Part shown: piece by piece, positions 16,625 to 27,758 of the stretch
How the letters are laid out: every line of letters begins with the position of its first letter
Numbering within the stretch: position 1 is the first letter of the stretch
Notes under the pieces: model-generated
The model's database searches: none
What the model was told of the DNA's origin: nothing
What the model saw: the letters and a program-made list of their open reading frames with translations, nothing else
Position numbers and translations under genes: made by a program
Assembly (NCBI GenBank): GCA_019348495.1
Contig: JAHWJI010000009.1
Location: 1-43,616 of the forward strand
Length of the DNA: 43,616 nucleotides
Source of the DNA: Actinomycetota bacterium
Lineage (GTDB): Bacteria; Actinomycetota; Acidimicrobiia; Acidimicrobiales; CADCSY01
Reading direction: 5' to 3'

Positions 16625-17857
16625 TCAGCGCCTGACCGGCTGGCGGCGGCGGCCCGTCTGACCGCCGCCGGAAGCGTTGACGGCACGGTTTCGGGGGCCC
16701 ACCGTCGGCGACGCCGGTGCTGGGGCGTCGGGCCCACGGGAGGGCTCCCGGCTCCGGGCGGCGACGTTGAGGAGGATGCCGGTGGCGGCCATGGTGACCA
16801 CCAACGATGAGCCGCCGAAGGAGATGAAGGGCAGCGTGAGGCCGGTGATGGGCAGCAGGCCGAGGACACCGCCGATGTTGACCAGCGCCTGGGCCAGCAC
16901 CCAGGCGGTGATCCCTCCGGCCACGAGCATGCCGAAGCGATCGGGGGCATGCAGGGCGGTGCGCACGCCGAGGACGGTGAAGCCCAGGAACAGGCCTATT
17001 ACCAGCACAGCTCCCATCAGGCCGAGCTCCTCGCCGATGATGGCGAAGATGAAGTCGGTGTGCGCGTTGGGCAGGAAGCCGTACTTGGCCCGGCTCTGGC
17101 CCAGACCCACCCCGAACAGGCCGCCAGAGGCCACGCCGGTGAGCGACTGGGTGATCTGGTAGCCGGTGTCGAGCGCGTCGCCGGTGGGGTCGAGGAACAC
17201 GAGCAGCCGGTCGCGCCGGTAGCCCTCACGTAGGGCCAGGACCAGGAACCCGGCCGTGGCCAAGCCGAACACGCCGGCCAGACGGGCCAGCGGCACCCCG
17301 GCCAGAAAGAGCACCGAGGCCACGATGGCCCCGACCACGATGGCCGCCCCAAGGTCGGACTGGGCCAGGATGAGGCCGGTCACCACCCCCCCCACCAGCA
17401 CCACCGGGCGAAGGGTGAGCCGGCTGTCGTCGACGCGGTGCGCACGGCGGGCCAACAGGTCGGCGCTGAACAGCAGCAGGGCCAACTTGCCCAGCTCCGA
17501 GGGCTGCAGGCGGGCCGGGCCCAGGTCGAACCAGCTCCGGGCACCGTTCACCTCCGTGCCCACCGCCGGGTGGAGCACGGCCAACAGCAACAGCGTCGAC
17601 AGGACCAGCAGGGGCAGGGCCAGCCGGCGCCAGGCCCGGTAGTCGACCCGCAGGGTGCAGACGAGGGCAATGGTGGCCAGCCCCAGCCACGTGGCCTGGC
17701 GCAAGAAGTAGCTCCAGGTGGAGCCCGACTCCTGGAGTGACTGCACCGACGACGCCGACAGCACCATCACCAAGCCGATGATGTTGAGCACGGCCACCAC
17801 CACGGCCAACAACACGAACCCGGAAGGGCGGGGACGAGGTACGGCGCGGGAGGTCAT
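16625..17857 (-). CDS. ftsW: Septal peptidoglycan polymerase FtsW (SEDS)
   Basis: 410 aa. ATG 17857 overlaps the murD stop by 4 bases. About ten membrane helices. SEDS motifs: NGARSWFDLGPARLQPSELG then KLALLLF, TDFIFAIIGEELGLMGA, and PFISFGGSSLV near the end. The enzyme polymerises lipid II into glycan strands together with the class B PBP FtsI. The C-terminal cytoplasmic tail of about 50 residues is Pro/Arg-rich. It is the last gene of the uninterrupted rsmH-to-ftsW run; murG, its usual follower, is absent on this strand. RodA is a possible alternative name by sequence, but the location favours FtsW. Confidence 0.94.
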   Translation of the reverse strand: MTSRAVPRPRPSGFVLLAVVVAVLNIIGLVMVLSASSVQSLQESGSTWSYFLRQATWLGLATIALVCTLRVDYRAWRRLALPLLVLSTLLLLAVLHPAVGTEVNGARSWFDLGPARLQPSELGKLALLLFSADLLARRAHRVDDSRLTLRPVVLVGGVVTGLILAQSDLGAAIVVGAIVASVLFLAGVPLARLAGVFGLATAGFLVLALREGYRRDRLLVFLDPTGDALDTGYQITQSLTGVASGGLFGVGLGQSRAKYGFLPNAHTDFIFAIIGEELGLMGAVLVIGLFLGFTVLGVRTALHAPDRFGMLVAGGITAWVLAQALVNIGGVLGLLPITGLTLPFISFGGSSLVVTMAATGILLNVAARSREPSRGPDAPAPASPTVGPRNRAVNASGGGQTGRRRQPVRR

Positions 17858-19221
17858 GTCCCGCCTCCGACCAGCTCGGCGACGGCACGGGCGAAGTCGT
17901 CGCCCCGCTCGCCGTAGGAGGAGTACCAGTCGAACGAGGCGCACCCGGGTGACAACAGCACGGCGTCGCCGGCTCTGGCCGCCGCCCGGGACGCAGCCAC
18001 GGCCTCGTCCATGGAGGTGGCGACGGTGACGGGGACGAGGCCGGCGAAGACACGTTCGATCTCACCGCCGGCCTCGCCGATGGCCACCACCGCCCGGATC
18101 CGGTCGGCCAGGGCCGCCAGCGGCGACAGGTCGAGGCCCTTGTTGCGTCCTCCGGCGATGAGCACCACCGAGGCGAAGCCGGCCACGGCGGCGGCGGCGG
18201 CGTGGGGATCAGTGGCCTTGGAGTCGTCGTAGTAGGCGACGCCCTGGTGCTCGACCAAGAAGCTGAGCCGGTGAGGTAGACCCCGGAAGGACCTGAGGGT
18301 GGTGCGCACGGCGTCGATGGATGCGCCCGCGGCCAGCGCGGTGGCGGCCGCGGCCAGCGCGTTGGCGAGGTCGTGGGGCAACGAGCGCCACATGGCACCC
18401 ACCCGCAGCAGCGTGGCGCCGTCGGGCATCACCAGCCGGTCCCCCTCCACCCGCCAGTCGCCGGTGCGCAGCCCGAAGGTCACGAGGCGCGAGCGCACGG
18501 TGGATGCCAACGCCGACACCACAGGGTCCTCGGCGTTGGCTATCGCCACCTCGTCGGGGCCCTGGGCCGTCCACACCCGGGACTTGGCCAAGGCGTAGTG
18601 CTCCATCGTCGGGTGCCAGTCGAGGTGGTCCTCGGCCTGGTTGAGCCAGGTCCCCACCGCCGGGCAGAAGCGCTCGGTGAACTGGAGCCGGAACGACGAC
18701 GCCTCCACCACGACCAGGTCGAGATCGGCTTCGCCGTCCAGGGCTTCGATCAGGGGCAGGTCGTTGTTGCCGGCCGACACCGTGCGTAGGCCGCTGGCTG
18801 CCAGCATGCGCTCGACGAGGGTGGTCACCGTGGTCTTCCCGTTGGTGCCGGTGATGGCCACCAACGGGAGCGACGACCATCGGGCGGCAAGCTCGAACTC
18901 GCTCCACACGGGCACCCCCGTGGCCAGGGCGAGGGCGACGCCAGGGTGGGAGGGAGGTACCGGCGGGCTGGGGACGACCAGGTCGCAGCCGGCCACCAGT
19001 CCGGCCAGCTCGTCGGAGCGGGGCCGTTCGTGGGTGACGACACCCTTGGCCGCCAGCGACGCCGATCGCAACCGGCTGGCATCGCCGGGGTGGTCCTCCA
19101 CAACCACCACCGACCAGCCCCGTTCGCGCAGGCGGTGGGCGGCGGCCTCGCCGGCGACTCCCAGGCCCACCACCAGCGCCCGCCCACTCTGGTCGCCCCC
19201 GGCGCTCTGGCCACCGGTCAT
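17854..19221 (-). CDS. murD: UDP-MurNAc-L-Ala--D-Glu ligase MurD
   Basis: 455 aa. ATG 19221 overlaps the mraY stop (ATGA). It adds D-Glu to UDP-MurNAc-L-Ala with ATP. Motifs: N-terminal ALVVGLGVAGEAAA, ATP loop ITGTNGKTTVTTLVERML, VVEASSFRLQF, the NQAEDHLDWH metal region, LPHRLSF, and YYDDSKATDPHAAAAAV in the C-terminal domain, ending with LSPGCASFDWYSSYGERGDD. All catalytic motifs are intact. The 0-base gaps on both sides imply translational coupling within the cluster. Confidence 0.96.
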   Translation of the reverse strand: MTGGQSAGGDQSGRALVVGLGVAGEAAAHRLRERGWSVVVVEDHPGDASRLRSASLAAKGVVTHERPRSDELAGLVAGCDLVVPSPPVPPSHPGVALALATGVPVWSEFELAARWSSLPLVAITGTNGKTTVTTLVERMLAASGLRTVSAGNNDLPLIEALDGEADLDLVVVEASSFRLQFTERFCPAVGTWLNQAEDHLDWHPTMEHYALAKSRVWTAQGPDEVAIANAEDPVVSALASTVRSRLVTFGLRTGDWRVEGDRLVMPDGATLLRVGAMWRSLPHDLANALAAAATALAAGASIDAVRTTLRSFRGLPHRLSFLVEHQGVAYYDDSKATDPHAAAAAVAGFASVVLIAGGRNKGLDLSPLAALADRIRAVVAIGEAGGEIERVFAGLVPVTVATSMDEAVAASRAAARAGDAVLLSPGCASFDWYSSYGERGDDFARAVAELVGGGT

Positions 19222-20252
19222 GCGGCCGCGGCCGTCGAGAGATAGTCGGCGTAGTACACAGCCATGGCCAGGGCGGTCAACATGCCAGCGAGGATCCAGA
19301 AGCGGATGATCACTGTCGTCTCCGGCCACCCCGCCAGCTCGAAGTGGTGGTGGATGGGCGCCATGCGCAGAGCCCGGCGCTGGAACAGCCGGAACGAGAC
19401 CACCTGGATGATGACCGACAGCGTCTCGACCACGAACAGCCCACCGATGATGGGCAGCAGGAGCTGGGTGTTGGTGGCCAGGGCGAGGGTGGCCAACCCG
19501 GCGCCGATGGCCAGGGAGCCGGTGTCACCCATGAAGATGCGGGCGGGAGCGGCGTTCCACCACAGGAAACCCGCACAGGCGCCCATCATCGACGCCGCCA
19601 CCAGGGCGAGGTCCAGAGGCTGGGTGTAGGTGTAGACCTCAGGGTGGCGCAGGGCCCAGAAGGCGATGATCACGAAGGCGGAGAAGGAGAAGGTGGACGA
19701 GCCCGCGGCCAGGCCGTCGAGCCCATCGGTCAGGTTCACGGCGTTGGTCGTCCCGAGGATCAACAACACCGCCCACAACGACCACAGCACCGGTCCCAGA
19801 TCGAGGCCGACGGTGCCGAGCCGTGTGAACGACAACTCGGTGGAGGCGTTGGCCAGGTGCAGGCTGAGCACGCAGTAGAGCGCGGCCACCATGAGCAAAC
19901 CGGCCAACTTGGTGCGCTTGGTGAGGCCCAGGTTGCGAGCGCGCGTGACCTTGATCCAGTCGTCGAGGAGCCCGACGAAGCCGGCGGCGGCGATGGCCAC
20001 GACGGTGAGGATGCCGGCCCAGGTGAAGACCGCACCCCCTTGGGTGTGGGCGACCAGGTAGCCGAGCAGGGCGCCGACCACGATGATGACTCCCCCCATG
20101 GTGGGGGTCCCCGCCTTGGTGAAGTGGCCCTGGGGGCCGTCCTCCCTGATGGGCTGGCCGATGCCCCGGGCCCGTAACCAGCGGATGAGCACGGGCGTGC
20201 CCACCAGGGCCACGCCGAAGGCCACGCCGGCTGCCAGCAGCAGCGGGATCAT
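19218..20252 (-). CDS. mraY: Phospho-MurNAc-pentapeptide transferase MraY
   Basis: 344 aa, ten predicted membrane helices. It transfers phospho-MurNAc-pentapeptide to undecaprenyl phosphate, giving lipid I. Motifs: GTPTMGGVI, LLDDWIK (catalytic Asp pair), TTNAVNLTDGLDGLAAGSS, FMGDTGSLAIGAGLA and the loop MAPIHHHFELAGWPE. The ATG overlaps the murE stop by 4 bases. In most bacteria murF lies between murE and mraY; here there is no room for it. Confidence 0.97.
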   Translation of the reverse strand: MIPLLLAAGVAFGVALVGTPVLIRWLRARGIGQPIREDGPQGHFTKAGTPTMGGVIIVVGALLGYLVAHTQGGAVFTWAGILTVVAIAAAGFVGLLDDWIKVTRARNLGLTKRTKLAGLLMVAALYCVLSLHLANASTELSFTRLGTVGLDLGPVLWSLWAVLLILGTTNAVNLTDGLDGLAAGSSTFSFSAFVIIAFWALRHPEVYTYTQPLDLALVAASMMGACAGFLWWNAAPARIFMGDTGSLAIGAGLATLALATNTQLLLPIIGGLFVVETLSVIIQVVSFRLFQRRALRMAPIHHHFELAGWPETTVIIRFWILAGMLTALAMAVYYADYLSTAAAA

Positions 20253-21685
20253 GAGGTGCCGCGGGAGCTGAACCCGAGGGCGACCAGCGCTTCGGCGACC
20301 ACCGCCTGATCGGAGAACTCGTCGCTGCGCCGGCCGACGACCTGGGTGGTCTCGTGGCCCTTGCCGGCGACAAGGACCACGTCACCGGGACCGGCGGTGG
20401 ACAAGGCGAGGTGGATGGCGGCCCGCCGATCGAGCTCCACCTGGACGGAGCCGGGTCCGTCGGCCCCGGCGACCACCTCGTCGGCTATGGCAACCGGATC
20501 CTCGGCTCTCGGGTTGTCGCTGGTGATGATGATCACGTCGGCCAGTGTTGCCGCGACCCGCCCCATCAGGGGGCGCTTCTGCCGATCGCGCTCGCCGCCG
20601 CAGCCGAAGACCACGACCACCCGACCGCCTGCGCTGGAGCGGGCCGCCACCAACAGCTGCTCGAGCGCATCGGGGGTGTGGGCGTAGTCGACCACCACGT
20701 CGAAGGGCTGTCCTGCCGTAACGTGCTCGTAGCGGCCCGGCACCGGGGGCACCGACGCCAGCCCCTGGACGACGTCCCCCTCGTCGACACCCAGGGCCAC
20801 CGCAGCCGTGGCCGCGGCCAGGGCGTTGGCCAGGTTGGCGCTGCCTCCGAGGGGAACCCGCAGGCGCCGGCCTCTCCAGGTGCCCACGGAGGCGTCCAGG
20901 CCGATCTTCACGTCGGTGACCTCGGCCAGGGAGAACGACCGTGTGGGCACCTGGGCGGTCTCGAGGAGAAGCCGCCCGTGGGGGTCGTCGACGTTGACCA
21001 CGGCCGCCGCCGTGCGCCCCGGTTCGAAGAGACGAGCTTTGACCGAGAAGTAGTCCTCCATGGAGGCGTGAAAGTCGAGGTGGTCCCGACTGAGGTTGGT
21101 GAAGATGGCCAGGGCGAACGACGTCGCCTCCACCCTGGCCTGGGCCAGGGCGTGGGAGGAGACCTCCATGGCCACTGCCGACAACCCGGCGTCGACCATC
21201 GACGCCAGGCTGGCCTGGAGCTCAGTCGACTCGGGTGTGGTCAAGGCGCCGCCGAGGGTCCCGATGAGGCCGGTCGGTCGACCGGCCGCCTCCAGGATGG
21301 CCCGCAGCAGCCACGTCGTCGTCGTCTTGCCGTTGGTGCCGGTCACGCCCACCACGTCGAGCCGATTCGACGGGTGGTCCCAGAAGGCGGCAGCCGCCCG
21401 GGCCATCTCCCGACGCGTGTCGGCGACGAGGATGCGGGGCACCCCCACGTCGACCGACTGCTCGCACAGCACGGCCACCGCACCTCGGCTCGCAGCCTCG
21501 GCCGCGTGGCGGTGACCGTCGCTGCGACGACCGGAGAGGCAGCAGAACAGCGCCCCGGGCTCGACCAGGCGGGAGTCGTGGGTGACCGAGGCGATCTCGA
21601 TGTCGGCGGGGTCGCCGCCGGGTCCCAGTTCGAGATCGGCCACGTCGATCTCGGCGAGGAGCTGATCGAGACGCGTGACCCTCAT
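20249..21685 (-). CDS. murE: UDP-MurNAc-tripeptide synthetase MurE (meso-DAP type)
   Basis: 478 aa. Motifs: VTHDSRLVEPGALFCCLSG in the N-terminal UDP-binding domain, ATP loop GVTGTNGKTTTTWLLRAIL, the substrate loop TTPESTELQ, NLSRDHLDFHASMEDYF with the carbamylatable Lys in VKARLFEP, DYAHTPDALEQ and, decisively, SDNPRAEDP. The DNPR motif indicates meso-diaminopimelate rather than lysine as the third residue, which fits dapB in the same window. It starts 36 bases after the ftsI stop, the only real gap in the rsmH-to-ftsW run. Confidence 0.96.
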   Translation of the reverse strand: MRVTRLDQLLAEIDVADLELGPGGDPADIEIASVTHDSRLVEPGALFCCLSGRRSDGHRHAAEAASRGAVAVLCEQSVDVGVPRILVADTRREMARAAAAFWDHPSNRLDVVGVTGTNGKTTTTWLLRAILEAAGRPTGLIGTLGGALTTPESTELQASLASMVDAGLSAVAMEVSSHALAQARVEATSFALAIFTNLSRDHLDFHASMEDYFSVKARLFEPGRTAAAVVNVDDPHGRLLLETAQVPTRSFSLAEVTDVKIGLDASVGTWRGRRLRVPLGGSANLANALAAATAAVALGVDEGDVVQGLASVPPVPGRYEHVTAGQPFDVVVDYAHTPDALEQLLVAARSSAGGRVVVVFGCGGERDRQKRPLMGRVAATLADVIIITSDNPRAEDPVAIADEVVAGADGPGSVQVELDRRAAIHLALSTAGPGDVVLVAGKGHETTQVVGRRSDEFSDQAVVAEALVALGFSSRGTS

Positions 21686-21721
21686 GCGTGGAGGGCGGAC
21701 ACCACTACGAACGACACCGGA

Positions 21722-23692
21722 TCAGTCTCGCGGCGTGACGGGGCTGGTTGGTGGACTGGTCGGCACCGACGCCTCGGGAAGCGGAGCCGTGGGGGCCACG
21801 CCCAGGAGACGCAGGCCGTACTCGGCGATCTCCGAGAACACGGGCGCAGCCACCACGCCGCCGTAGTAGGGGTGCGGTTCGTCGAGCGCCACGATGATCG
21901 ACAGCCGGGGGTCCTCCACCGGTGCGAAGCCGGCGAACACTCCCATGTACGCACCCGATTCGTAGCCCCGGACCTCTGTCGACGGCTTGCGGGCCGTGCC
22001 CGTCTTGCCCGCCACGGTGTAGCCGTCGACCTGGGCGTTGACACCGGTCCCGTCCGACACCGCCGAGGCCAGCATCGACGTCATCTCCGCCGCCGTCTCC
22101 GCCGAGACCACCCGCTCGCCCCCCGGGCTTGCGACCGGGCGCTCCTTCCCGTCGGCCCCGATGACCGAGCGGACCAGGCGGGGCGGGACGGAGACGCCAC
22201 CGTTGGCCAAGGTGTTGAGGGCGCCGAGCATCTGGACGGCGTTGACGGCGACGCCCTGGCCGATGGCGATCGAGCCGATCGACGTACTGGCCCAGTCGTC
22301 GACGGGGAGCAGGAGCCCGGCGCTCTCTCCCGGGAAGCCGAGTCCGGTCGGGCGTCCGAAGCCGAAGCGACGGAGGTACTGGTCGACGCCCTGTGGCCCC
22401 AACCGCTGGGCCAGGGTGATGGTACCCACGTTGGACGACTGGGCCAGCACCTCGGTCACCGACATCCGCTGCGTGGGGTGGGAACTGCTGTCGGTGAAGC
22501 GCTTGGGACCGACCTGGAGGGAGTCGGGGACGACCATCACGTTTTCGGGCTCGGCCACGCCCTCCTCGAGGACGCCGGACATGGTGACGACCTTGCTGGC
22601 CGAGCCCGGCTCGAAGACCGAGGTGAGCGGGGCGTTGTTCCTGGTGGGCTGGGGCTCGCCCCCCCCGCCCGGCGCCTCGACGCTGGCCATGGCCAGGACC
22701 GCACCGCTGCGGGGATCCATGACCACGGCCATGCCGCCATCGGCCTCCGTGGCCTGCACCTGCTCGGACAGGGCACGCTCGACCTCGTACTGCAGCGAGC
22801 GGTCGAGGTGCAACACCACGTCCTCACCCCTGGCCGCCGGCCGAAGGGCGTGCTGGCCGCCGGCGATCGTTCCCCCATCGCGCGCCCGCTCCACCAGCAG
22901 CTCACCGGGCTGGCCCGACAGCACGCCGTCGAGTTGGCGCTCGATGCCCGACAGCCCCTGGTCGTCGACGTCTACGTCGCCGAGGACGGCCAGGGCCAGG
23001 TCGTCGGCGGGGCGGACACGACGGGGCTCGTCCCGCAGCCCGATGCCACTGAGGTCCAGAGCCTCGACGGCGTCGGCCCGGTCGTCGTCGATCTGGCGGG
23101 CGAGGTAGACGAAGCGGGAGCCCTTCCCGGTCAGGCGGTCCCGCAAGTAGGACTGGTCCATGTCGAGCACCGGTGCCAGCGCGGCTGCCGTCGCCGCCGC
23201 GTCCTCCACGAGGAGCGGGTCGGCCCACACCGTCTGCCGGCGCACGGAGATGGCCAGCTCGTTGCCGTTGCGGTCGAAGATCGAACCGCGGGGAGCGGGC
23301 AGCTCGACGGTCCGCAGGCGCTGAGCCATGCCCCGCTCGGCGTAGGCCTCGGGCGCCACCACCTGGAGGTGGGCCAGGCGGACGGTGACGCCGCCGAGGG
23401 CGACCACCACGGCGAGGAACAGCACCTGGCAGCGGCGCCGGGGAGCACCAGGTCGCCCGGTGCGCCGTCGGCGCCGCTCGGGGGGAGAGGCCCGCCGTGG
23501 CCGTGGCTGAGGGCGGGCCCCGGTCCGGGCTGGAGGACGGGCCACCCGGCGGGCACGGGCGGTCCGGACCGGTCCCCGGGGTGAAGGGTCAGCGGCACGG
23601 CTGCGGTTGCGCGGTCGCCTCCGCACCGGGGCCGCAACTCCAGTGGCACGGGAGCGGTTGCTCCCGAGCGGGCGCCGTCCACTGGCGCTCAT
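21722..23692 (-). CDS. ftsI: Class B penicillin-binding protein FtsI (PBP3)
   Basis: 656 aa from ATG 23692, which overlaps the ftsL-like stop. A basic Pro/Arg-rich cytoplasmic tail (about 1-85) precedes a single membrane helix (VLFLAVVVALGGVTVRLA), a dimerisation domain beginning near RGSIFDRNGNELA, and the transpeptidase domain. Catalytic motifs: S364-A-S-K367 (EPGSASK), S419-S-N421 (QSSNVG) and K563-T-G (AGKTGTARK). It cross-links septal peptidoglycan with FtsW. The cytoplasmic tail is longer than in most FtsI proteins, a feature shared with actinobacteria. No PASTA domains are visible. Confidence 0.95.
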   Translation of the reverse strand: MSASGRRPLGSNRSRATGVAAPVRRRPRNRSRAADPSPRGPVRTARARRVARPPARTGARPQPRPRRASPPERRRRRTGRPGAPRRRCQVLFLAVVVALGGVTVRLAHLQVVAPEAYAERGMAQRLRTVELPAPRGSIFDRNGNELAISVRRQTVWADPLLVEDAAATAAALAPVLDMDQSYLRDRLTGKGSRFVYLARQIDDDRADAVEALDLSGIGLRDEPRRVRPADDLALAVLGDVDVDDQGLSGIERQLDGVLSGQPGELLVERARDGGTIAGGQHALRPAARGEDVVLHLDRSLQYEVERALSEQVQATEADGGMAVVMDPRSGAVLAMASVEAPGGGGEPQPTRNNAPLTSVFEPGSASKVVTMSGVLEEGVAEPENVMVVPDSLQVGPKRFTDSSSHPTQRMSVTEVLAQSSNVGTITLAQRLGPQGVDQYLRRFGFGRPTGLGFPGESAGLLLPVDDWASTSIGSIAIGQGVAVNAVQMLGALNTLANGGVSVPPRLVRSVIGADGKERPVASPGGERVVSAETAAEMTSMLASAVSDGTGVNAQVDGYTVAGKTGTARKPSTEVRGYESGAYMGVFAGFAPVEDPRLSIIVALDEPHPYYGGVVAAPVFSEIAEYGLRLLGVAPTAPLPEASVPTSPPTSPVTPRD

Positions 23693-24249
23693 CGGGACAG
23701 GTAGGGCTTGACCGTCCCCCACGAGGGGACAGTGGCGGTGCCCACCGGCACCTCCGAGCTGGTCGAGCCCGGCGACGGTGCCAGCCCCTCGGCGGAGCTC
23801 GGGGCGTCAACCGGTGACGGCTGCACGTAGGTGATCCTCTCGGGAGTGACCATGCCGAGGCGGTCGGTGGCGGTCGACACCACCCGGGCGGGCGCCTCCA
23901 GCGTGGCCACCTCCAGGCGCAGCGCCTGGTGCCGAGCCTGGGCCTCGACCACCTGCTGCTCCAACTCGTCCAGGCGGACCTGGTTGGACACCAACACGGC
24001 GTTGACGCCGGCCAGGGCCAGCAGGGCGGCGACCGCCAGCACACCCGCCACCACCAGTGACCGACGGGCCCGTCGGCGCCGCGCCGCGATCTCGAGGCGG
24101 GTGTTGTCGACCAGACGGAGCCGGGGTCGGGTGGCATCGGGCCGCGCCGGCGTCGAGCGGGGGGTGCTCGGCCGGGCGGGGGTGGCGTCGGTCCGGGACG
24201 GCCCCGGAGCACGAGAGGGCAGACGGGCAGGGGCGGGAACGGGGCTCAT
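23689..24249 (-). CDS. FtsL-like septum protein (bitopic, coiled coil)
   Basis: 186 aa. A disordered Pro/Thr/Arg-rich cytoplasmic region (about 1-60) is followed by one membrane helix (SLVVAGVLAVAALLALAGVN), then an extracytoplasmic heptad-like helix (QVRLDELEQQVVEAQARHQA) and a DRLGMVTPERITYVQP segment typical of FtsL/FtsB-type proteins. It would bridge FtsQ to FtsW/FtsI and activate them. Assignment rests on topology and position between rsmH and ftsI, since this family is poorly conserved. Both ends overlap their neighbours by 4 bases. A Ser/Pro-rich extension of about 40 residues follows the conserved part. Confidence 0.85.
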   Translation of the reverse strand: MSPVPAPARLPSRAPGPSRTDATPARPSTPRSTPARPDATRPRLRLVDNTRLEIAARRRRARRSLVVAGVLAVAALLALAGVNAVLVSNQVRLDELEQQVVEAQARHQALRLEVATLEAPARVVSTATDRLGMVTPERITYVQPSPVDAPSSAEGLAPSPGSTSSEVPVGTATVPSWGTVKPYLSR

Positions 24250-25262
24250 CGATCACCTCTCGCATCGGCTTCGCTCTCGTGGAGGGCACCGTGCTCGCGT
24301 GCCGTGCCGAGGTGGCCAGGCGCCAAGCGCTCCACGGCCCGCAGTCGGGCGCTGGCCGCCCGGGGGTTGGCGGCCGTCTCCTCCGGCGACGGGGTACGGG
24401 ATCCGGCGTGCACCAGCCGTACGGTGGGGATGGCGCCACAACCGCAGGGCAGGTGGGCGGGACAGGTGCAGCCCCCGGTGGCAGCCAGGCGGAAACGGGA
24501 CTTGACGATGCGGTCCTCGCCGGAGTGGTACGCCAGCGCCACACAGCGACCGCCGGGCACGAGGAGCTCGATGGCCTGGTCGAGGGCGCCAGGTAGGATC
24601 GCCAGCTCGTCGTTCACGGCGATGCGCAGGGCCTGGAAGGTCCGGGTGGCGGGATGGCGACCACGGCGCCGGGCGGGCGCGGGGATGGCGTCACGGACCA
24701 CCTCGGCCAGCTCGGTGGTGGTGGCCAGGGGACGAGCGGCGACGATGGCCCGGGCGATGCGAGCGGCGTAGCGCTCGTCGCCGAGCTCCCGGACCAGGCG
24801 GGCGAGCTCGGCCTCGGACTCGTGGTTGACCAGCTCGGCCGCGGTGCGGCTCCCGCTGGTTGTGCTGGTGTTCATCCTCATGTCAAGGGGTCCCTCGCGG
24901 CGATGGCTGAAGCCCCGTTCGGCCCGGTCGAGCTGCGGTGAGCTGACACCGAGGTCGAACAGCACCCCACTGGCGCCCTGGTGGCCGAGTTCGGACATCA
25001 CGTTGGCGAGATCGTCGAAGCGGGCGTGGTGCACCTGCGCTCGTGCCCCGAAGACGGACAGCCGCTCGGCGGCCGCGGCCACGGCGTCGAGGTCCCTGTC
25101 GATGCCCACCACCGTCAGGTGGGACCAGGCCTCGAGCAGCGCCTCGGCGTGGCCGCCGCCGCCGACGGTGGCGTCGACCACGGTCCCGGGGGGAACGGAA
25201 CCGAACAGGTCGACGACGTCGTGGACCATCACCGGCAGGTGGTGGTAGGAGGCCTCGCTCAT
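24246..25262 (-). CDS. rsmH: 16S rRNA (cytosine1402-N4)-methyltransferase RsmH
   Basis: 338 aa. ATG 25262 is preferred over TTG 25268 because the G-rich ribosome site (GGGGGG) lies 6 bases before the ATG. Motifs: YHHLPVMVHDVV at the N-terminus, the SAM loop VDATVGGGGHAEALL, VLFDLGVSSPQLD, and RGFSHRREGPLDMRM. It methylates N4 of C1402 in the ribosomal P site. It is the second dcw gene after mraZ, as is standard. The stop overlaps the ftsL-like start. Confidence 0.96.
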   Translation of the reverse strand: MSEASYHHLPVMVHDVVDLFGSVPPGTVVDATVGGGGHAEALLEAWSHLTVVGIDRDLDAVAAAAERLSVFGARAQVHHARFDDLANVMSELGHQGASGVLFDLGVSSPQLDRAERGFSHRREGPLDMRMNTSTTSGSRTAAELVNHESEAELARLVRELGDERYAARIARAIVAARPLATTTELAEVVRDAIPAPARRRGRHPATRTFQALRIAVNDELAILPGALDQAIELLVPGGRCVALAYHSGEDRIVKSRFRLAATGGCTCPAHLPCGCGAIPTVRLVHAGSRTPSPEETAANPRAASARLRAVERLAPGHLGTAREHGALHESEADARGDR

Positions 25263-25425
25263 CTGCAACCCCCCGACCGACGGCGTCCGTCGGGATGTCT
25301 CCCCGATCGAGCTAGATGGCAGCGGGCGGAGTAGGGGCTGTCCATCTCGGCGGTCGGAGGGCTGCGGATGAGCGACGAGCTCCTACAGGGGCCGTCGCAT
25401 CGCTTCTGGTCTCGCTCTCCTTTCC

Positions 25426-25452
25426 CTGGTGGTCGTTTCTCTGGTGGTCGTT
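25426..25452. repeat. 12-bp direct repeat in the mraZ-rsmH gap
   Basis: CTGGTGGTCGTT occurs at 25426-25437 and 25441-25452 (period 15) just after the mraZ stop on the minus strand. The 199-base gap between mraZ and rsmH holds nothing else clear. It might be a small slippage duplication or a leader element for rsmH. Confidence 0.5.
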
Positions 25453-25461
25453 GTGGTCTGA

Positions 25462-25893
25462 TCAGACGCCGAGGGCGGCCAGGGCCTGGTCGGAGGCGTC
25501 GAACCCCTCGTCATCGGGGGGATGGGTCTCGTGCCAGCGCTGGGGATCCCAGATCTCGATGCGGACGTTGCCGCCCACGACCTTGACGTCGCTGGTCAGC
25601 CCGGCGTACTCGCGCAGGTTGGCCGGGATGGCGATGCGGCCCTGCTTGTCGGGGATGACGAGGTGCGCGCCGGCGGTGAACTGGGTGGCGACACGACGCT
25701 GCTGTGGGCCCTGGCGGGCGTACTGCTCCATCCTGGCCGTCACCTCCTTGAACTCCGCGGGGTGGAAGACCGCCAGGCACTTGTCGAGCGCCTTGGTGAG
25801 GTAGCCCCGCTCCCCCAGCTCCTCCCGGTGATCGGCAGGCAGGACGACCCGCCCTTTGGGATCGAGGGAGCGATCGAACTCCCCGAGGAACAC
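25462..25893 (-). CDS. mraZ: Transcriptional regulator MraZ
   Basis: 143 aa, GTG start with GGAAAGG 7 bases upstream. Two AbrB-like swapped-hairpin repeats: FDRSLDPKGRVVLPADHREE at 7-26, and HLVIPDKQGRIAIPANLREY in the second half. MraZ forms rings that bind repeated TGGGN boxes in its own promoter and represses the dcw operon. The boxes are visible directly upstream (see 25933-25989). It opens the cluster, as in most bacteria. Confidence 0.96.
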   Translation of the reverse strand: MFLGEFDRSLDPKGRVVLPADHREELGERGYLTKALDKCLAVFHPAEFKEVTARMEQYARQGPQQRRVATQFTAGAHLVIPDKQGRIAIPANLREYAGLTSDVKVVGGNVRIEIWDPQRWHETHPPDDEGFDASDQALAALGV

Positions 25894-26016: not shown

Positions 26017-26673
26017 TCAGCGGGGAGGGAGGTGGGCCAACAGGGCGTCCACGATCAGCGGGAAGGCCAGGTCGAGGCCGGTAGCCGCTGCCGCCAGCTC
26101 CTCCCCGGCCCGGGCCCGGTCCTCATGAGCGAGGCCGAGCAGCCCGAGCAGGGTGGCGGGCTCCCAGCGACGGCTCAGGGTGCACTGGAAGCGGGCGCCG
26201 GCCCGGCTCCGGCGCTGCGCCATGCCCAACAGCTTGCGCCCGTCCACCTGGACCTCCCCGGGGCCCAGCCCGGCGAAGCAGACGAGCGACGACCACCGGC
26301 TGGCGACCAGGGCCCCGGTGTGCACGGTGGCGCCGCCGACGCCGAGCTCGTGCAGGGCCGCCTGCCAGGCCCGCCCCAGCCAATGGGCCGCCCTACCCAC
26401 GTCGTCGTCCCACAGCGGGTCGTCACGGGGCACCACCACGTCGACCCACAGCGACTCCCCAGGGACGAGGAGCACCGCTCCTCCCCCGCTGCGTCGGCGC
26501 ACCAGGGCGACCCCGGCTCTGGCCAACGCAGCCCCGTCGGCATGGTGATCGGGTTGGGTGCTGCCCAGCACCAGGGCCGGACGCAGGACCTCCAGCACCG
26601 ACACGCGGCGCGCCACCGGCTCGCTCAGTGTCCGGGCGTGGAAGTCGGCCGCCTCCCCCGCCGCCCGCTCCAC
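26017..26673 (-). CDS. Lipoate/octanoate protein ligase or transferase (LplA/LipM-like)
   Basis: About 218 aa from GTG 26673, chosen because GGAGGTGGGTGG lies upstream; the frame also has GTG 26691 and GTG 26727, the last of which would overlap the divergent selD start. Motifs of the BPL_LplA_LipB fold: LVLGSTQPDH, VRRRSGGGAVLLVPG, VDVVVPRDDPLWDDDVGRA and VDGRKLLGMAQRRS with the acyl-adenylate/octanoyl-binding Lys (about 147). A Cys at about 132 (SSLVCFAGLG) sits where LipM octanoyltransferases have their catalytic Cys. The usual HG after the Lys region is replaced by QC. The acceptor would be an E2 or GcvH lipoyl domain. It is not clear whether it is a ligase, a transferase or a degenerate paralogue. 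Confidence 0.7.
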   Translation of the reverse strand: MERAAGEAADFHARTLSEPVARRVSVLEVLRPALVLGSTQPDHHADGAALARAGVALVRRRSGGGAVLLVPGESLWVDVVVPRDDPLWDDDVGRAAHWLGRAWQAALHELGVGGATVHTGALVASRWSSLVCFAGLGPGEVQVDGRKLLGMAQRRSRAGARFQCTLSRRWEPATLLGLLGLAHEDRARAGEELAAAATGLDLAFPLIVDALLAHLPPR

Positions 26674-26714
26674 CGTCCATGTTCCACCCACCTCCTCAGT
26701 AGACTGCCCCGGGC

Positions 26715-27758
26715 ATGGCGTCTCCACCGTCCCTCCGCCGGCTGACCCAGTTCAGCCACGGCGCCGGTTGAGCCTGCAAGCTCGCCCCCGGCGAGCTGGC
26801 GCAGGTCCTGCGCCGACTGGCACCCGTGAGCCATCCCGACCTGCTGGTCGGCTCGGCCACCGGCGACGACGCCGCCGTGTGGCGCCTCGACGCCGAACGG
26901 GCGCTGGTGGTCACGACCGACTTCATCACCCCCGTGGTCGACGACGCCCGCACCTGGGGCCGCATCGCCGCCGCCAACGCCGTCTCCGATGTCTACGCCA
27001 TGGGTGGTCGACCCCTGCTGGCACTCAACCTGGTGGGTTGGAACACTGAGGAACTGCCCACCGAGCTGCTGAGCGAGGTGCTGCTCGGTGCCGCCGACGT
27101 AGCCGCCGACTGCGGCTTCGTCACCGTCGGGGGGCACACCGTCGACGATCCCGAGCCCAAGTTCGGCCTCGCCGTGGTGGGCGAGGTCCATCCCGACCGT
27201 CTGCTCACCAACACCGGGTTGCGCCCGGGCGATGCGCTGGTGCTGACCAAGCCCCTCGGGGTGGGGATCATCGTCACCGCCATCAAGCGCGACCTGGCCC
27301 CAGCCGAGGCGACCACCGCCGCGGTGGCGTCGATGACCCGGAGCAACGCCGAGGCGGCGACGGTGGCCCTGGCCGCGGGCGCCACCGGCGCCACCGACGT
27401 CACCGGCTTCGGGCTGCTCGGCCACCTGGGCCGCATGGCCGAGGAGTCGGCCGTCGACGTCAGCGTCGACGTCGAGGCCGTACCCCTGCTCCCGGGCGCC
27501 CGCTCCCTGGCCGAGGACGGCTGCATCCCCGGCGGCAGCCGTCGCAACCTCGAGTGGGTAGGTCCCCGACTCGACACCGGCAGCGTCGACGAGCTCAGCG
27601 TCGTGGTGCTGGCCGATGCCCAGACCTCGGGGGGCCTGGTCTTCGGCTGCGAGCCCGACGCCGCCCAGCGGGCCGTCGAGCAGCTCGTGGCCACCGGCCA
27701 CCAGGCCGCCGTGGTGGGCCAGGTCCGCTCGGGGAGCGGCCGGATACAGCTGCGGTGA
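26715..27758 (+). CDS. selD: Selenide, water dikinase SelD with in-frame TGA (selenocysteine)
   Basis: 347 aa if the TGA at 26769-26771 is read as selenocysteine. SelD makes selenophosphate from selenide and ATP. The N-terminus is MASPPSLRRLTQFSHGAG-U19, then A-C21-K22. U19 and K22 align with Cys17 and Lys20 of the Escherichia coli enzyme (SHGAGCGCK). Downstream motifs are intact: GSATGDDAAVW (ATP), TTDFITPVVDD, VSDVYAMGGRP, VGGHTVDDPEPKFGL, and TGFGLLGHLG. Total length equals the usual 347. Treating TGA as stop would leave an 18-codon stub and a protein lacking its catalytic loop. A strong hairpin starts right after TGA (26772-26805). Some bacterial SelD enzymes are known selenoproteins. The ribosome site is weak; an in-frame TAG at 26700 limits the start to this ATG. 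The stop overlaps the next gene (GTGA). Confidence 0.88.
26772..26805 (+). promoter_or_regulatory. SECIS-like hairpin directly after the selD TGA
   Basis: CCTGC (26773-26777) pairs with GCAGG (26801-26805), and AGCTCGCC (26779-26786) pairs perfectly with GGCGAGCT (26790-26797), with an A/GGC internal loop and a 3-base apex. Bacterial SECIS elements are hairpins inside the coding region, just 3' of UGA, recognised by SelB. Position and strength fit. The tight CCC apex lacks the typical loop G-U, so SelB recognition needs testing. Confidence 0.65.

Follow-up and report, generated by a model that had tools for sequence, protein, structure and literature searches.

A selD gene with an in-frame UGA and a predicted canonical SECIS hairpin in an acidimicrobial genome bin

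The DNA analysed here (the window) is a stretch of 43,616 nucleotides, positions 1 to 43,616 of contig JAHWJI010000009.1 in the Acidimicrobiia assembly GCA_019348495.1. Positions 16625–25893 are occupied by a cluster of division and cell-wall genes (mraZ, mraW, an ftsI-type transpeptidase, Mur ligases, mraY and ftsW), and selD, which is transcribed divergently, lies immediately upstream of mraZ and of a lipoate-ligase-like gene. As assigned, selD shares its first 13 bases (26715–26727) with the opposing lipoate-ligase-like ORF (26017–26727), which begins at a GTG, and one of these two starts probably lies further in; ATG 26715 is not proven as the start of selD, with homology running from about residue 7–9 on. 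Among the relatives examined, only the four closest loci (L049–L052, 79–82% identity) retain the mraW–mraZ–lipoate ligase neighbourhood beside selD; because of this restriction, the neighbours were rejected as a clue and say nothing on selD function. The features considered below are as follows.

26715–27758, forward strand: selD, selenide, water dikinase (selenophosphate synthetase), 347 residues with Sec at position 19; matched by TIGR00476, NF002098 and structure 3u0o.
26769–26771, forward strand: in-frame UGA, assigned as a selenocysteine codon at the catalytic Cys/Sec position from alignment to the Cys of 3u0o and the codons of 150 loci.
26779–26797, forward strand: hairpin H1, 8 bp with a CCC loop, directly abutting H2; possibly an accessory hairpin rather than the SelB-binding loop.
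26798–26814, forward strand: hairpin H2, predicted SECIS, a 6-bp stem GGCGCA/UGCGCC with the loop GGUCC at 26804–26808; assigned from conservation, covariation and the bSECIS model.

Read from ATG 26715, the frame gives MASPPSLRRLTQFSHGAG-TGA-ACKLAPGEL... and stays open to the terminal TGA at 27756–27758; it is intact apart from this one in-frame TGA, in agreement with the sequence-only reading, which had described a frame of SelD homology unbroken to 27758. The product matches the SelD family models TIGR00476 (381.6 bits; cut-off 125) and NF002098 (365.8 bits; cut-off 299) and resembles solved SelD structures, including 3u0o (E 5.4e-77). Its glycine-rich N-terminal segment carries the Cys/Sec position followed by the conserved Lys: TGA 26769–26771 aligns with the Cys of 3u0o (SHGAG-U-ACK versus SHGAGCGCK), which is known to be the catalytic Cys/Sec of the family. 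The same correspondence is seen across 150 related SelD loci, drawn from the same class, other actinobacteria and one record labelled Gemmatimonadota: the codon at this site is TGA in 116, TGC in 23 and TGT in 11, with no other residue represented, and all four of the closest loci have TGA. The proposal that selD encodes a selenoprotein with TGA in place of the catalytic Cys is thus upheld by homology, by alignment and by the 116 TGA-type loci.

The source genome (2.2 Mb, 161 contigs, 98% complete) encodes SelA, SelB and tRNA-Sec, all scoring above curated cut-offs, as had been predicted from selD alone. The selB gene (272.6–291.4 bits; cut-off 242) lies on contig C117 and encodes a GTPase domain, a SelB beta-barrel and a C-terminal SelB third wing; it is adjoined by selA (376 bits; cut-off 268). 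The tRNA-Sec gene, selC, is on contig C149 (67.8 bits; cut-off 47), and ARAGORN assigns it the anticodon TCA (UCA in the RNA). These genes and selD occupy different contigs of a metagenome-type bin in 161 pieces, which leaves a small chance of a binning error. A 2-selenouridine synthase (SelU/YbbB, TIGR03167) was not found in the genome, so use of selenophosphate by this enzyme is not indicated.

A further in-frame TGA occurs outside the window in fdhA (L131; C74:20719–22278, minus strand), which encodes a molybdopterin oxidoreductase of the formate dehydrogenase alpha type. This single TGA has the context NQARI-U-HSATVPG, the known position of Sec in the alpha subunits of formate dehydrogenases. 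It is followed by the hairpin GUCCCC-GGUCU-GGGGAC, with the loop GGUCU 18 nt after the UGA, although a different structure had the lowest energy when a 45-nt stretch was folded. Because fdhA has a TGA at the Sec site, selD is not the sole probable selenoprotein of this organism, and FdhA is probably the second.

Turning to the recoding signal, the bSECIS model set out in a 2026 review (PMC13188914) specifies a loop of 3–9 nt, an upper stem of 4–16 bp, a distance of 16–37 nt from the UGA and a minimum free energy of at most −7.5 kcal/mol, with a G in the first two loop positions and mostly the form N1-G-[G/U]-N-N2, in which N1 pairs with N2. H2 satisfies all of these terms: its stem has 6 bp, or 7 bp with the loop GUC when the loop ends pair as G-C, its loop GGUCC lies 32 nt after the UGA, and the hairpin folds at −11.3 kcal/mol. 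Among 102 distinct TGA-type genes, the outer six pairs are formed in 97.5% of cases; all are intact in 93 genes and at least one is broken in the other 9, and the loop is xGUxx in every gene, the GU being invariant. By comparison, 44% of cells pair in the 34 Cys-type genes, a single one of which has the hairpin intact. At three of the six pairs, two-sided changes turn G-C into C-G, A-U or U-A, and the pair that closes the loop also changes from G-C to C-G (CAG-GUC-CUG versus CAC-GUC-GUG). This compensation spans codons, matching Ala GCG with Arg CGC, GCC with Gly GGC and GCU with Ser AGC.

The covariation score of H2 in 55 diverse sequences is 0.259 versus 0.098 in shuffled alignments, none of 500 shuffles scoring as high; the shuffles leave shared ancestry in, a matter in which versions of the hairpin slid along the alignment (0.02–0.11) and the Cys-type controls help. 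Measured against synonymous recoding, H2 has a mean z of −2.66 in TGA-type genes and −0.07 in Cys-type genes. The hairpin also recurs at the same position in 24 TGA-type SelD genes from Gemmatimonadota, the phylum of the Gemmatimonadota-labelled record, with seven pairs in 20 of them and one mismatch in 4; it is broken in the single Cys-type SelD gene examined from that phylum. An Rfam scan of the window at gathering thresholds returned no match, a result that carries no information on the SECIS. Taken together, the fit to the model, the conservation in TGA-type as opposed to Cys-type genes, the covariation, the sharing with Gemmatimonadota and the comparable hairpin in fdhA identify H2 as the predicted SECIS of selD, and a canonical one.

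The sequence-only reading had placed the SECIS one hairpin too early, in a two-stage structure made of the 5'-proximal 8-bp hairpin with its CCC loop (H1) and an outer stem pairing approximately 26772–26777 with 26801–26806, and had suggested a lineage-specific element. Both stages exist, yet neither is supported as the SECIS; the 3' end given for that feature, 26810, falls inside H2, which had been missed. In the fold of 26769–26815 the best structure combines H1 and H2 (−27.1 kcal/mol), whereas the two-stage form, which excludes H2, reaches −23.9 kcal/mol. The outer stem does not covary (0.020 versus 0.038 in shuffles of the 55 aligned sequences) and has all six pairs intact in only 21 of the 102 TGA-type genes, on which grounds the two-stage hairpin was rejected as the SECIS. 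H1 has a better record: it is paired in 89% of cells in TGA-type genes versus 60% in Cys-type genes, its mean z against synonymous recoding is −1.32 versus +0.13, it shows some covariation and two-sided change, and it is also present in the Gemmatimonadota sequences. However, its loop contains no G and starts 15 nt after the UGA, contrary to the model in PMC13188914, its eight pairs are all intact in only 46 of the 102 genes, and its apex is variable and often unpaired, while the adjacent H2 fits the model in full. That H1, by itself or within the two-stage form, acts as a lineage-specific SECIS is accordingly very improbable, the canonical GGU-type loop of H2 being one that is shared across phyla. 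Instead, H1 may have an accessory role, or may arise in part simply because the stretch encodes KL(A/G)P(G/A)EL. A bipartite signal, in which H1 would itself be selected for spacing, pausing or stacking and so let the long 32-nt distance work in the SelD genes of Actinomycetota and Gemmatimonadota, is an idea we hold tentatively and consider rather unlikely. H1 is the only part of the system with some novelty.

Other explanations of the in-frame TGA fare less well still. The assembly is a draft and Cys-type homologues do exist (34 of 150), so a misread TGC or TGT codon, or a dead gene, might be imagined; but because TGA occurs in 116 independent loci, the closest four included, and a Cys codon in the other 34, we exclude chance, sequencing error and pseudogene formation for practical purposes, and the intact remainder of the frame and a conserved SECIS absent from the Cys-type genes argue the same way. 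Reading of the UGA as Trp or Cys by way of an altered genetic code or a suppressor tRNA has nothing specific in its favour. UGA serves as an ordinary stop in the window, ending selD itself and recognised genes such as those for IF-2, PNPase, FtsI and FtsW, and the genome carries a tRNA-Sec with the UCA anticodon together with selA and selB; with the recoding tied to a SECIS as well, such a reading has scarcely any probability. Finally, an ORF at 26826–27758 would permit initiation at GTG 26826, 3' of the TGA, and yield a SelD of 310 residues without the active-site segment. That product would miss the catalytic residue, which is held in the upstream segment, and this segment is conserved in frame in the relatives up to and including the TGA, leaving the shorter protein a negligible prospect.

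We consider it almost certain, then, that selD encodes a Sec-containing selenophosphate synthetase whose UGA at 26769–26771 is decoded as selenocysteine by way of SelB at H2. The codon, the reading frame, the homology, the Sec genes of the genome, and the conservation and covariation of H2 come from the sequences themselves. By analogy with known biology, which is the source of our assignments of Sec insertion, SelB binding and SelD catalysis, a ribosome reaching the UGA would insert selenocysteine from tRNA-Sec delivered by SelB, and SelB would be recruited by the GGUCC-loop hairpin within the coding sequence, 32 nt downstream. Selenophosphate produced by SelD would be used by SelA to make Sec-tRNA-Sec, in turn needed for synthesis of both SelD and FdhA. 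SelD would thereby depend on its own product, because the Sec-tRNA-Sec required to make it is itself made from selenophosphate.

In its features, H2 resembles the bSECIS consensus and the E. coli fdhF type: it is a coding-region stem-loop after the UGA, with an N1-G-U-N-N2 loop whose N1 and N2 can pair and a spacing within 16–37 nt. It differs in its long spacing of 32 nt and in having a second hairpin abutting its 5' side; in the fdhA gene of the same genome (C74) the corresponding loop is GGUCU at 18 nt, as against GGUCC at 32 nt. At the level of the protein, we see no essential difference from known Sec-containing bacterial SelD, which is of the same family, has its UGA at the same active-site position and is accompanied by SelA, SelB and tRNA-Sec; what is added is a further lineage, this Acidimicrobiia family. 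The gene is a Sec-type selD of the usual sort and its SECIS is canonical, an arrangement that is well known and common in the class.

Sec-type SelD has long been known as one of the two bacterial selenoproteins with the widest distribution (PMC1794560, PMC5029168). A 2006 survey places it in Actinobacteria too, listing Rubrobacter as well as Symbiobacterium, which was then classed there. Among the sampled genomes of the class, SelD is present in 206 of 296 and SelA in 200 of 296, and SelA accompanies SelD in 43 of the 44 SelD-bearing genomes of the same order (lists compared by hand). Given these counts and the co-occurrence of the two genes, Sec use is common in the class; the earlier suggestion that the trait is rare in Acidimicrobiia-like actinobacteria does not hold. 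Within the literature searched, no paper joining Acidimicrobi*, selenocysteine and selenoprotein was found. With SelA in about two thirds of the sample, this class of actinobacteria, most of them uncultured, can be counted as a whole among the users of selenium, and automatic annotation would truncate or split the selD and fdhA genes of these bacteria. The well-supported SECIS alignment, drawn from two phyla and with Cys-type homologues as a natural control, is usable for testing SECIS models.

Two observations concern the wider set of sequences. SelA in most genomes of the same order matches its family model only from about position 53–73 on, while in many other genomes of the class the match begins at position 1–3; the N-terminal domain thus seems to be divergent or short in most genomes of this order, to judge from the model matches (the SelA of the present genome is encoded at C117:36493–37611). 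Three SelD genes from other actinobacterial metagenome-assembled genomes (L106, L109 and L110) have the altered motif SHCAG-U-A(A/G)K, in which the Cys after Sec is gone and a new Cys stands three residues before Sec (CxxU).
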